The notes under the pieces are model-generated. The model worked only from the letters and a program-made list of their open reading frames with translations. It did not search any database and had not been told where the DNA came from. A stretch of 64,000 bases of DNA from positions 80,359-144,358 of the forward strand of contig QVQC01000007.1 of NCBI GenBank assembly GCA_003428585.1, written 5' to 3'. Origin of the DNA: Nioella halotolerans (GTDB taxonomy: Bacteria > Pseudomonadota > Alphaproteobacteria > Rhodobacterales > Rhodobacteraceae). The first letter of the stretch is position 1. Each line of letters starts with the position of its first letter. The translations under genes were made by a program, and so were the position numbers. Below, piece after piece: positions 61,414 to 64,000 of the stretch.

Positions 61414-62427
61414 ATGGATGAGATTATCACAATCGGGATCGATCTGGCGAAGTCCGTTTTCCAGCTGCACGGTGTCGACGCCAAGGGTCGTCCCTCATTG
61501 CGTCGCCAACTCAGACGCAGCCAGGTGCTCGAGTTCTTTCAGCGCCAGCCGGCGTGCCTGATCGGCATGGAAGCCTGCGCCAGCGCGCATTACTGGGCAC
61601 GTGAGTTGATCAAGCTCGGGCATGAGGTTCGACTGATGCAGCCCAGCTACGTGAAAGGGTATGTGAAACGGGGCAAGACCGATGCAGCCGACGCCGAAGC
61701 CATCTGCGAAGCGGTATCACGCCCCTCGATGCGGTTTGTCCCCGTGAAGAGCGAGGACACGCAGGCCTTGCTGATGACACACAAGGCGCGGGAGTTCCTG
61801 GTCCGTCAGCAGACCCAGATCGTGAACGCCATTCGCGCGCATCTTGGCGAGTTCGGCATCGTCGTCCCGAAGGGCGTTCATAATGTCGAGCGCCTGATCA
61901 CGGCGTGTGACGGGGCCGGTCTGCCCGCGCCAGCGCGCAAGGCCCTGAACCTGCTGGCCGACCAACTGGTCGACACGCAGAAGAAGATCGAGGCGCTGAC
62001 CGCAGACATCCGCGCGGACGCGCGGGCCAATGACGCCGCGCAGCGCTTGCAGACGATCCCCGGGGTCGGGCCGATCACCGCCAGCGCGCTGGTCTCGGCG
62101 CTGCCCGACATCGCCGAGTTCAAGTCAGGTCGGGACCTGTCCGCGTGGCTGGGCCTGACGCCCAGGCCGCATTCCACCGGTGGCAGGGAAAGGCTCGGGC
62201 GCATCTCCAAGATGGGCAACCGATATCTACGCCGGCTGCTCTATCTTGGTGCGATCGCGCAGGTCAGCGCCCGGCGCCGGGGCGAGCCCGGCGAAGACTG
62301 GCTGTGGAAGATCATCCAGCGCAAGAAGCCCAAGCAGGCTGCAATTGCCCTCGCCAACCGCATGGCGCGCACGGCCTACGCGGTGATGAAGAACCAGACG
62401 GAATTCCGGGCGGCAACCGCCGCCTGA
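61414..62427 (+). CDS. IS110-family (IS1111 group) DEDD transposase
   Basis: A 337-residue RuvC-like DEDD recombinase. The N-terminal domain begins IITIGIDLAKSVFQLHGVD (first Asp), then GMEACASAHYWAREL (Glu), and the DAADAEAICEA segment (last two Asp). The C-terminal Transposase_20 domain has LQTIPGVGPITASALVSAL, LSAWLGLTPRPHSTGG and RISKMGNRYLRRLLYLGA, with the conserved Ser region. It appears intact. IS110 enzymes excise and insert through circular intermediates guided by a bridge/seek RNA. The start at 61414 follows AAGGGAG. Confidence 0.93.
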   Translation: MDEIITIGIDLAKSVFQLHGVDAKGRPSLRRQLRRSQVLEFFQRQPACLIGMEACASAHYWARELIKLGHEVRLMQPSYVKGYVKRGKTDAADAEAICEAVSRPSMRFVPVKSEDTQALLMTHKAREFLVRQQTQIVNAIRAHLGEFGIVVPKGVHNVERLITACDGAGLPAPARKALNLLADQLVDTQKKIEALTADIRADARANDAAQRLQTIPGVGPITASALVSALPDIAEFKSGRDLSAWLGLTPRPHSTGGRERLGRISKMGNRYLRRLLYLGAIAQVSARRRGEPGEDWLWKIIQRKKPKQAAIALANRMARTAYAVMKNQTEFRAATAA

Positions 62428-62682: not shown

Positions 62683-62827
62683 TACATGGGCCGAGAGACA
62701 TTGGCGAACGCGCCCGCGTCTGGTGCCTTATACCGGTCCGTTTGACGGCTTCCATGCCGTGGCGGCCTCGGTGTCGAAGACCTGCCTCGTGCGCTTCGAC
62801 CGGAACCGTTACTCGGTGGATGCGCGT

Positions 62828-62857
62828 GTCACGCCGAAGGCGTGCCTCTGGCACGAC
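62828..62857 (+). repeat. 30-nt double-hairpin element, copy 1
   Basis: Arms GTCACGCC, GGCGTGCC and GGCACGAC with loops GAA and TCT. ACGCC pairs with GGCGT, and GTGCC pairs with GGCAC. It lies in istA between the codons for DARV and GRPVEI and shifts the frame by +1. Confidence 0.85.
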
Positions 62858-63228
62858 CGGCCGTCCGGTCGAGATCCGCGCCTACGCAGACCGCATCGAG
62901 ATCTGGCAGGACGGCCAGGTGGTGGGCCGACACGACCGCGTTTTTGGGCGCGATCGCACCGTGTACGACCCGCTGCACTACATCCCCGTACTTGCCCGCA
63001 AGCCCGGGGCCTTGCGGAATGGGGCCCCCTTCAAGGACTGGGAACTGCCGCCTGCCATGCGCCGGATCCGGCGCAAGCTCGAGCGTGTCCCGGGCGGCGA
63101 TCGTCAGATGGTGGAAATACTGGCCGCGCTGCTGACTGACGGGGTCGAGGCGGTCGAGGCTGCCTGCGCCGAGGCACTTGGCCAGGGCGTCCACTCCGCC
63201 GATGTCGTCCTCAACATTCTCGCCCGAC

Positions 63229-63258
63229 GTCACGCCGGAGGCGTGCCTGAGGCACGAC
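63229..63258 (+). repeat. 30-nt double-hairpin element, copy 2
   Basis: Arms GTCACGCC, GGCGTGCC and GGCACGAC with loops GGA and TGA; arms are identical to copy 1 and only loops differ. It lies in istA after ILARR and before DPEPPAPIA and shifts the frame by +1. Confidence 0.88.
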
Positions 63259-63296
63259 GATCCCGAGCCGCCCGCGCCGATTGCCACCCCGGACGC

Positions 63297-63326
63297 GTCG
63301 CGCCAGCGGCGCGCGTCTCGCGCGAC
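63297..63326 (+). repeat. 30-nt double-hairpin element, copy 3
   Basis: Arms GTCGCGCC, GGCGCGCG and CGCGCGAC with loops AGC and TCT. Changes from copy 1 are compensated in both stems (GCGCC/GGCGC and GCGCG/CGCGC). It lies in istA between ATPDA and RLAQEPVAD, 38 bp after copy 2, and shifts the frame by +1. Confidence 0.85.
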
Positions 63327-63412
63327 GGCTGGCTCAGGAGCCGGTCGCCGATTGCGCCCGATACGACGCCCTGAGGAGACCCGACCATGAAGAGATCGCA
63401 GGTTCTGGATGC

Positions 63413-63442
63413 GTCACGCCAAAGGCGTGCCTGAGGCACGAC
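63413..63442 (+). repeat. 30-nt double-hairpin element, copy 4
   Basis: Arms GTCACGCC, GGCGTGCC and GGCACGAC with loops AAA and TGA. It lies in the first codons of istB; the frame is kept across it. Confidence 0.88.
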
Positions 63443-63458
63443 GAGCCAGCTGAAGCTC

Positions 63459-63488
63459 GTCGCGCCATAGGCGCGCGTCCCGCGCGAC
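63459..63488 (+). repeat. 30-nt double-hairpin element, copy 5
   Basis: Arms GTCGCGCC, GGCGCGCG and CGCGCGAC with loops ATA and TCC; same arm type as copy 3. It is only 16 bp after copy 4, between SQLKL and GMKAAYDE of istB, keeps the frame length but brings an in-frame TAG. Confidence 0.87.
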
Positions 63489-63521
63489 GGCATGAAGGCG
63501 GCCTATGACGAGATCCTCGCC

Positions 63522-63551
63522 GTCGTGCCGGAGGCACGCTTGCAGCGTGTC
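63522..63551 (+). repeat. 30-nt double-hairpin element, copy 6 (divergent)
   Basis: Arms GTCGTGCC, GGCACGCT and AGCGTGTC with loops GGA and TGC. This is a third arm type, yet GTGCC/GGCAC and CACGCT/AGCGTG still pair fully. It lies in istB between DEILA and VKRQHDPQR and shifts the frame by +1. Confidence 0.8.
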
Positions 63552-64000
63552 CGTGAAGCGACAGCACGACCCTCAAAGGATGATTGGTGAGCTTCTTCAG
63601 GCCGAGATCAGCGAGAAGCAAGCCCGGTCGATCAAGTACCAGATGGCAGTCGCAAAACTGCCATTGGCCAAGGAGATCGAAGAGTTCCGGTTCGAAGATA
63701 CCCAGATCAATGAAACGCTGGTCAGGGACCTCGCCGGAGGAGACTTCCTCGCACAACAGCGCAACGTCGTCCTGATCGGCGGGACGGGGACAGGCAAGAC
63801 CCACCTCGCCGTCGGTATTGCCCGCGCCTGTATCCATGACGGGGCCCGCGGGCGCTTCTTTAACGCGGTCGACCTCGTCAACAAGCTGGATATCGAGGCC
63901 CGCGACGATCGTCAGGGTCGAACCGCTGATACCCTTAGCCGCCTCGACTTCCTGATCCTCGACGAACTCGGCTACCTGCCCTTTGCTCAGACCGGCGGCC

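Follow-up and report, generated by a model that had tools for sequence, protein, structure and literature searches.

A 30-nt palindromic insert of alphaproteobacterial transposase genes that seems to have moved, reusing the same target sites

Introduction

Near the end of a contig of Nioella halotolerans (Rhodobacteraceae), a decayed IS21 transposase operon is interrupted by six units of exactly 30 nt, which raises the question of what these units are and how they came to lie there. The DNA analysed, hereafter the window, is a stretch of 64,000 nucleotides of contig QVQC01000007.1; as its end is also the end of the contig, the istB remnant is cut there. An earlier inspection of the letters alone (the sequence-only reading) had described each unit as three 8-nt arms separated by two 3-nt loops, 8-3-8-3-8, and all six were recovered at the positions it gave, with its arms and loops (Table 1). 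Loci, genomes and contigs are designated below by L, G and C numbers.

Table 1. Units and host genes at the end of the window (arms are given by their variable dinucleotides)
Feature	Coordinates	Strand	Description
IS110 transposase frame, neighbour	61414..62427	+	without units
IS21 istA C-terminal remnant	62730..63386	+	Mu-transpos_C_2 split over two frames around unit 1
Unit 1	62828..62857	.	arms AC/GT/AC; istA C-terminal remnant; 5 target nt replaced, net +25
Unit 2	63229..63258	.	arms AC/GT/AC; istA remnant; 5 target nt replaced, net +25
Unit 3	63297..63326	.	arms GC/GC/GC, pair 19:23 G:C; net +25
IS21 istB remnant	63387..64000	+	holds units 4-6; truncated by contig end
Unit 4	63413..63442	.	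arms AC/GT/AC; near istB start; GAT replaced, net +27
Unit 5	63459..63488	.	arms GC/GC/GC, pair 19:23 G:C; in istB; TAC replaced, net +27
Unit 6	63522..63551	.	arms GT/AC/GT, pair 19:23 T:A; in istB; terminal GTC in place of GAC; net +25

Empty sites and junctions

The region takes 1271 bases in the window and about 1105-1115 in its best IS21 relatives, and the alignment gaps coincide with the units. These relatives are annotated as istA/istB and lack the units, which rules out the units as ordinary IS21 coding sequence; the intact copies that were aligned are likewise free of them. The empty sites therefore demonstrate insertion, as had been proposed from the sequence.

Against unit-free relatives, 19 junctions were resolved in IS21, IS110 and IS66 genes. 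Those in IS21 comprise six in the window, two each in L031 and L143 and one in L045; those in IS110, two each in L142 and L088 and one each in L046, L091 and L110; and the single IS66 junction is in L173. The neighbouring IS110 frame of the window served as one empty relative for the IS110 insertions in other loci. For the second junction of L088, the placement came from visual inspection and from the protein reading, and the third L031 unit and the L076 unit, for which no empty relative aligned, were left out of the 19.

The net gain was 24 nt in three junctions, 25 in seven and 27 in nine, and not 30, because 3, 5 or 6 target bases were replaced. The earlier description of a 30-nt insertion thus holds for the length of the unit and fails for the net gain, as 3 or 5 target bases are gone at each site of the window; its claim that four units shift the frame agrees with the gains at sites 1, 2, 3 and 6 as opposed to those at sites 4 and 5. 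The alignments defined both the empty sites and the junctions, and target-site duplication (the MITE criterion) was seen in none of the 19. One possible reading of the L046 junction is a gain of exactly 24 nt between GCG and ACGACG. Base +1 is G in L110 and L088 where their relatives show T or C, which suggests that the outer G is part of the element; in L173, a G stands before the unit where relatives have C, and this counts against the outer bases being the element's own.

Structure and pairing

A structural scan of the window gave nine matches, six of which were the units, compared to 0-2 matches in each of ten order-2 Markov shuffles. In the 3.5 Mb of the organism's own genome, the pattern derived by the sequence-only reading recovered units 1-5 only (reversed control 0), a looser pattern gave six forward places, all of them the units of the window, and a covariance model added one clear divergent copy at C64:70109 (E ~3e-6) together with weak ones. 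Same-genus copies elsewhere (L002, L006 and L216-L218) are of the AT type and lie within similar palindromic flanks; since the window has AC and GC types, its IS21 remnant may be imported.

Fetched loci totalling 1.25 Mb supplied 161 copies in which pairing was followed; the reversed control gave none. The loci were fetched mostly by the unit pattern, so that GTC, GAC and most stem bases were fixed by choice and R/Y was fixed in most copies, whereas the loops, the flanks, the base taken at each R or Y and, in part, positions 19 and 23 could vary. In 137 of the 161 copies, the arms belong to one of four sets with full 1:2 and 2:3 pairing (GT/AC/GT in 51, AC/GT/AC in 42, AT/AT/AT in 31 and GC/GC/GC in 13). 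Among 92 distinct units, the cells changed on both sides numbered 74 for arms 1:2 and 85 for arms 2:3, values as high as these being reached in 0 of 500 shuffles, which ignore the relatedness of the sequences; for arms 1:3, there were none. Both hairpins are therefore kept despite their common middle arm, and pairing is indeed preserved while the sequence varies. The picture of two adjoining hairpins is correct in that the middle arm pairs with both outer arms, and incorrect for simultaneous full-length hairpins: as the middle arm is common to both, only one can form per strand at a time at full length.

The stem has 5 bp, or 8 if a mismatch is allowed at T2:C18 or G13:A29, and the loop has 3 nt; one-sided changes to G:U are present in the stems. 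A C precedes 137 of 172 copies and a G follows 142, with both in 121 and either in 158; in window units 1 and 6, at least one of the two flanking bases is absent. The usual flanks give ends of CGTC...GACG, with one tagged hairpin on each strand, whose second hairpin is the complement of the first hairpin of the opposite strand. The loop of the 5' hairpin, reading either strand 5'->3', is GNA in 235 of 344 cases and ANA in 58. Triloops of the GNA kind are reportedly very stable as DNA. Complementary loop pairs were found in 18 of 172 copies compared to 28.5 expected by shuffling (7 of 100 compared to 17.8 in the AC/GT class), as if the long hairpin were avoided. Together, the GNA loops, the single tagged hairpin per strand and the avoidance of the long hairpin point to action on single-stranded DNA. 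In folding predictions, unit 4 as RNA would adopt a three-way form whose outer stem is CGTC:GACG, copies of perfect symmetry (e.g., that of L005) fold as one long hairpin, and the window units as DNA fold only modestly above shuffles (z -0.5 to -2.1).

The fetched loci hold 136 three-arm units, one two-arm and no four-arm form, and one copy with both spacers of 4 nt; this is not a fair test of arm number, because it was the three-arm pattern that selected the loci. In a fair test, the tagged single hairpin matched 2 of 379 family genomes (reversed control 4) and the three-arm unit 30 of 394 (reversed control 1). The tagged single hairpin alone is no commoner than chance.

Two further possibilities were discarded. 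Chance hairpins of GC-rich DNA are out, given a reversed control of 0 compared to 161 copies in the loci and the one reversed match in 394 genomes. That units enter at the tip of a palindrome already present was rejected as a general rule, since flank pairing is near the shuffled level (at the first position 0.73 compared to 0.65 in shuffles, elsewhere slightly above or below them).

Distribution and genomic placement

Besides its matches in the window's family, the strict pattern was found in 5 of 61 relatives. Across the phylum it matched 5 of 378 genomes, all of them Alphaproteobacteria and four in the window's family, the window's own genome included. A scan of species genomes gave at least 118 stretches; among the matches listed, most belong to Rhodobacteraceae and to Roseomonas-like Acetobacteraceae, and a few to Hyphomicrobiales, other Alphaproteobacteria and one MAG labelled Fibrobacter. 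Eight stretches with the unit came from viral contigs. A plasmid search with L148 gave matches to other portions of that stretch and none to the DNA around its unit. In 29 genomes or records chosen as carriers, the looser pattern gave 2-25 forward places each, compared to 0-4 in the reversed control. The search of the own genome and of Rhodobacteraceae that the sequence-only reading had proposed thus yielded further copies in many related genomes. Of the two observations that it had named as refuting, neither was seen in full, since copies exist outside the window and the aligned intact IS21 copies are free of units. Its view of an apparently mobile, non-autonomous hairpin element is upheld by the empty sites, the kept pairing and the copies in those genomes. 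The insertion element is real, widespread and structurally constrained.

After the removal of 10 copies too near a stretch end, 151 of the 161 copies could be classified by the coding score around them, which was strong on neither side in 130, on one side in 17 and on both sides in 4. Gene context was examined around the 14 copies that scored best for coding: nine lie inside transposase genes (the window, L031, L046, L076, L088, L091, L110, L142 and L173) and five between genes (L055, L070, L085, L169 and L171). The copies of L045 and L143 lie in IS21 by alignment. Where Pfam was run, the host transposases were of the IS110, IS66 and mutator types.

The earlier suggestion that the units are tolerated in dead genes suits the dead IS21 host and fails as the whole story, since four transposase frames elsewhere are read through the unit: 393 aa in L142, 369 aa with two units in L088, 216 aa in L046 and 366 aa in L076. 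The peptide encoded by the inserted unit is often arginine-rich, such as SRRRRASGT. The unit-bearing IS110 frame of L046 (1421-2068, minus strand) also has an in-frame run of QET repeats.

Recurrent target sites

Several sites are occupied in more than one IS copy. Site 3 is filled in the window, in L031 and in L143, with a net gain of 27 in the last two, and site 4 is filled in these three and in L045; the Leisingera and G254 IS21 copies thus have units at two of the window's sites. In IS110, one site is common to L142 and L088, which are 56% identical, and another to L110 and L091 (59%). Four shared sites take 11 of the 19 junctions, in diverged IS copies. With 136 possible C-N3-G or C-N5-G starts per 800-base stretch, the chance of two independent matches to the window's six sites is about 0.002.

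The shared IS21 sites could also stem from one ancestor or from recombination between IS21 copies, with few independent insertions. L031, L045 and L143 do belong to one IS21 clade, and a further 3 nt are lost at site 4 in both L031 and L045; the right flank of the window's copy at that site resembles this other clade, so that gene conversion could explain this shared site. However, the tree places the window's IS21 with unit-free copies of Nitratireductor and G267 (local support 0.98 and 0.999) and away from the other carriers, and the window's site-3 unit differs from the others in both arms and gain. The recurrence extends, moreover, to the two diverged pairs of IS110 genes, and units are present in IS66 and mutator-type genes too. 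On this evidence, common ancestry or recombination is an unlikely account of the recurrence.

Other small repeats occur in the same loci. A second tiny hairpin family of about 37-41 nt, of the form CCCTCTCGG-N7-CTGCG-N6-CCTGCCGGGCA, is found in the same IS21 copies (L143:6220-7790 and L045:1849-1889), with one site common to Leisingera and Antarctobacter; it matches 27 of 384 family genomes (control 0), and its arms show compensating changes as judged by eye only. By eye as well, a third motif, GCCATTGGTCCGAGG with its complement, is seemingly scattered in the G254 IS21 remnant (L031:661-760, 1330-1490 and 2050-2095). In the Roseomonas-like loci L065, L093, L112 and L131, a longer mosaic repeat, CCCTCA...TTGGCTTC...GGCCATTCGG, has units at recurring positions; its own hairpins vary yet stay palindromic (15 examples).

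Comparison with known repeats

The sequence-only reading knew of no named bacterial family of such a form, and this has to be revised, as the CGTC-tagged REPs are a close known kind. According to the text of the 2013 survey by Di Nocera (PMC3733652), these repeats are mainly alphaproteobacterial, form predominantly HH dimers, include intragenic copies such as RPE-4 and RPE-6 of Rickettsia, and have no dedicated transposase. The same text, figures apart, reports CGTC repeats as missing from Acetobacteraceae and names none of Rhodobacter, Ruegeria, Silicibacter and Paracoccus.

Compared to CGTC REPs as that text describes them, the unit shares several features. First, a CGTC tag stands at the foot of the hairpin, the tags lying outside at both ends; in this comparison, the inner GTC/GAC was fixed by the search pattern and the outer C and G were free. 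Second, the orientation is that of an HH (outward-facing) dimer, the tagged single hairpin being at chance level in the family. Third, all the phylum genomes with a strict match (5 of 378) are of the window's class. Furthermore, both kinds have complementary stem variants, intragenic copies and dimers nested in other palindromes, and neither is known to have a dedicated transposase.

The differences, taken from the same text, are equally clear. The CGTC REP has a stem of 8-9 bp and a loop of 4-5 nt, whereas the unit has 5 bp (8 with a mismatch) and a loop of 3. Complementary AT at the first two stem positions is almost invariable in the REP, whereas AT in all three arms occurs in only 31 of 161 units, the other arms being mostly AC, GT or GC in complementary sets. 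The 3-nt unpaired tail of the REP is mostly CCA, whereas the unit has mostly GCC or GCG there, and its second half overlaps the place of the tail. The two halves of the unit overlap in one arm, and the unit occurs in Acetobacteraceae. As its stem and loop are outside the published CGTC values, the kinship rests on tag, orientation and taxon. CGTC-footed hairpins of 7-9 bp were not enriched in the loci (23, compared to 12-38 for eleven other four-base feet). The unit locus L061 also holds two classical-looking CGTC repeats, and at L061:2150-2240, away from these two, the unit lies apparently within the loop of a classical CGTC repeat.

Inverted pairs of REPs are named REPINs. A RAYT-driven REP as such was rejected on the counts of Y1_Tnp (the RAYT family), which was found nowhere in the own genome, in one of 30 carriers and in three of 30 genomes without a strict match. 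The GTAG REPs moved by RAYT resemble the unit in consisting of short inverted hairpins, as the survey text describes them (PMC3733652), but the unit lacks a GTAG-type tag, its flanks and ends reading CGTC...GACG. According to the survey, new junctions of GTAG repeats were looked for in Pseudomonas by sequencing populations through many generations.

More distant likenesses were also considered. Rickettsia palindromic elements, two of which (RPE-4 and RPE-6) are CGTC repeats in the text of PMC3733652, are palindromic inserts within genes, some of them in frame; they are, however, 105-146 bp long in the accessible part of PMC2229807, whereas the unit has 30 nt and its inspected intragenic copies are in transposase genes. 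The RUP of Streptococcus pneumoniae, as given in that same part of PMC2229807, is a small repeat in transposase genes of several IS families, but it has 107 bp, uses TA targets and is linked to IS630-Spn1, whereas the unit has 30 nt and replaces target bases. The mitochondrial double-hairpin elements cited as an analogy are also tiny mobile hairpins in the accounts available, but belong to organelle genomes; the likeness drawn is one of form. Rfam gave no match on the unit in L001, L005, L065 and L143 at the gathering threshold, and no report of a 30-nt unit, nor of such a repeat in Rhodobacteraceae or Roseobacter, was found in the open-access literature as far as it could be searched.

Origin and movement

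The unit is most likely an unusually compact variant of CGTC-REP-like palindromes, and we consider it probable that the copies are mobile, non-autonomous palindromic insertions of this kind that were moved as structured DNA. With its usual flanks, the element reads C-GTC-RY-GCC-N3-GGC-RY-GCS-N3-SGC-RY-GAC-G. It comprises two short hairpins of opposite orientation, one per strand, which have the middle arm in common; each has the CGTC tag at its 5' foot and is capped by a GNA-like triloop. Such a unit would act like an HH dimer of CGTC-tagged REPs compressed to about 32 nt. It would move as structured DNA that is probably single-stranded, as could arise during plasmid transfer or on the lagging strand, and its joining at C-N(3-6)-G sites would be the work of a nuclease or transposase. 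A copy would survive where the host transposase gene is dead or tolerant, and IS elements may carry units between species. The single-stranded hairpin route is what we infer from the loops and strands described above. Certain limits apply: C/G flanks on both sides are present in only 121 of 172 copies, the search for Y1_Tnp in 30 carriers, the own genome among them, matched one carrier and gave no enzyme candidate, and mobility is read from diverged relatives, no pair of close strains having been seen to differ by an insertion.

A more specific reading can be entertained tentatively. In it, an element of about 32 nt with fixed ends would repeatedly enter the same C-N(3-6)-G sites, replacing target bases; its two mutually exclusive GNA-loop hairpins, one per strand, would let the single-strand-specific activity of a new enzyme use either strand, and transposase genes would carry it between alphaproteobacterial families. 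If this were true, the scarcity of complementary loops (18 compared to 28.5) would protect the element from nucleases that cut long hairpins.

Template switching is a doubtful alternative, in which a replicating polymerase would jump into a hairpin copy elsewhere and back through 1-3 nt of homology, so that a dedicated enzyme would be unneeded. The own genome, without Y1 transposase, is in keeping with this, as are junctions that lack target duplication, have lost 3-6 bases and have short runs of bases in common with the unit ends (e.g., the 24-nt gain of L046). However, random jumps should copy variable lengths, whereas only three net-gain values occur in 19 junctions, and the half-unit, a single tagged hairpin with its ends fixed in the search, is at chance level in 379 genomes.

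The least probable alternative is an RNA-level cis element, a REP-like UTR hairpin under transcript selection with its transposase copies as passengers: inserted copies in unrelated transposase genes would still require a mobile step, the loop rule is valid on both strands, with GNA triloops said to be stable as DNA, and the four loci gave no Rfam match. What speaks for it is that a strong coding score is missing from both sides of 130 of the 151 classified copies, that one-sided G:U changes occur in the stems, and that many REPs are thought to act as RNA in the text of the 2013 survey (PMC3733652).

Significance

What mobilises CGTC REPs and whether new ones still form were left open in the text of that survey (PMC3733652). 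Judged from sequence, tiny hairpin inserts appear to break some transposase genes and to be read in frame through others. The 30-nt insert seems to have moved, reusing the same target sites. As a smaller relative of CGTC REPs, with clean empty sites, three gain lengths and reused targets, it makes the question of their mobilisation testable.
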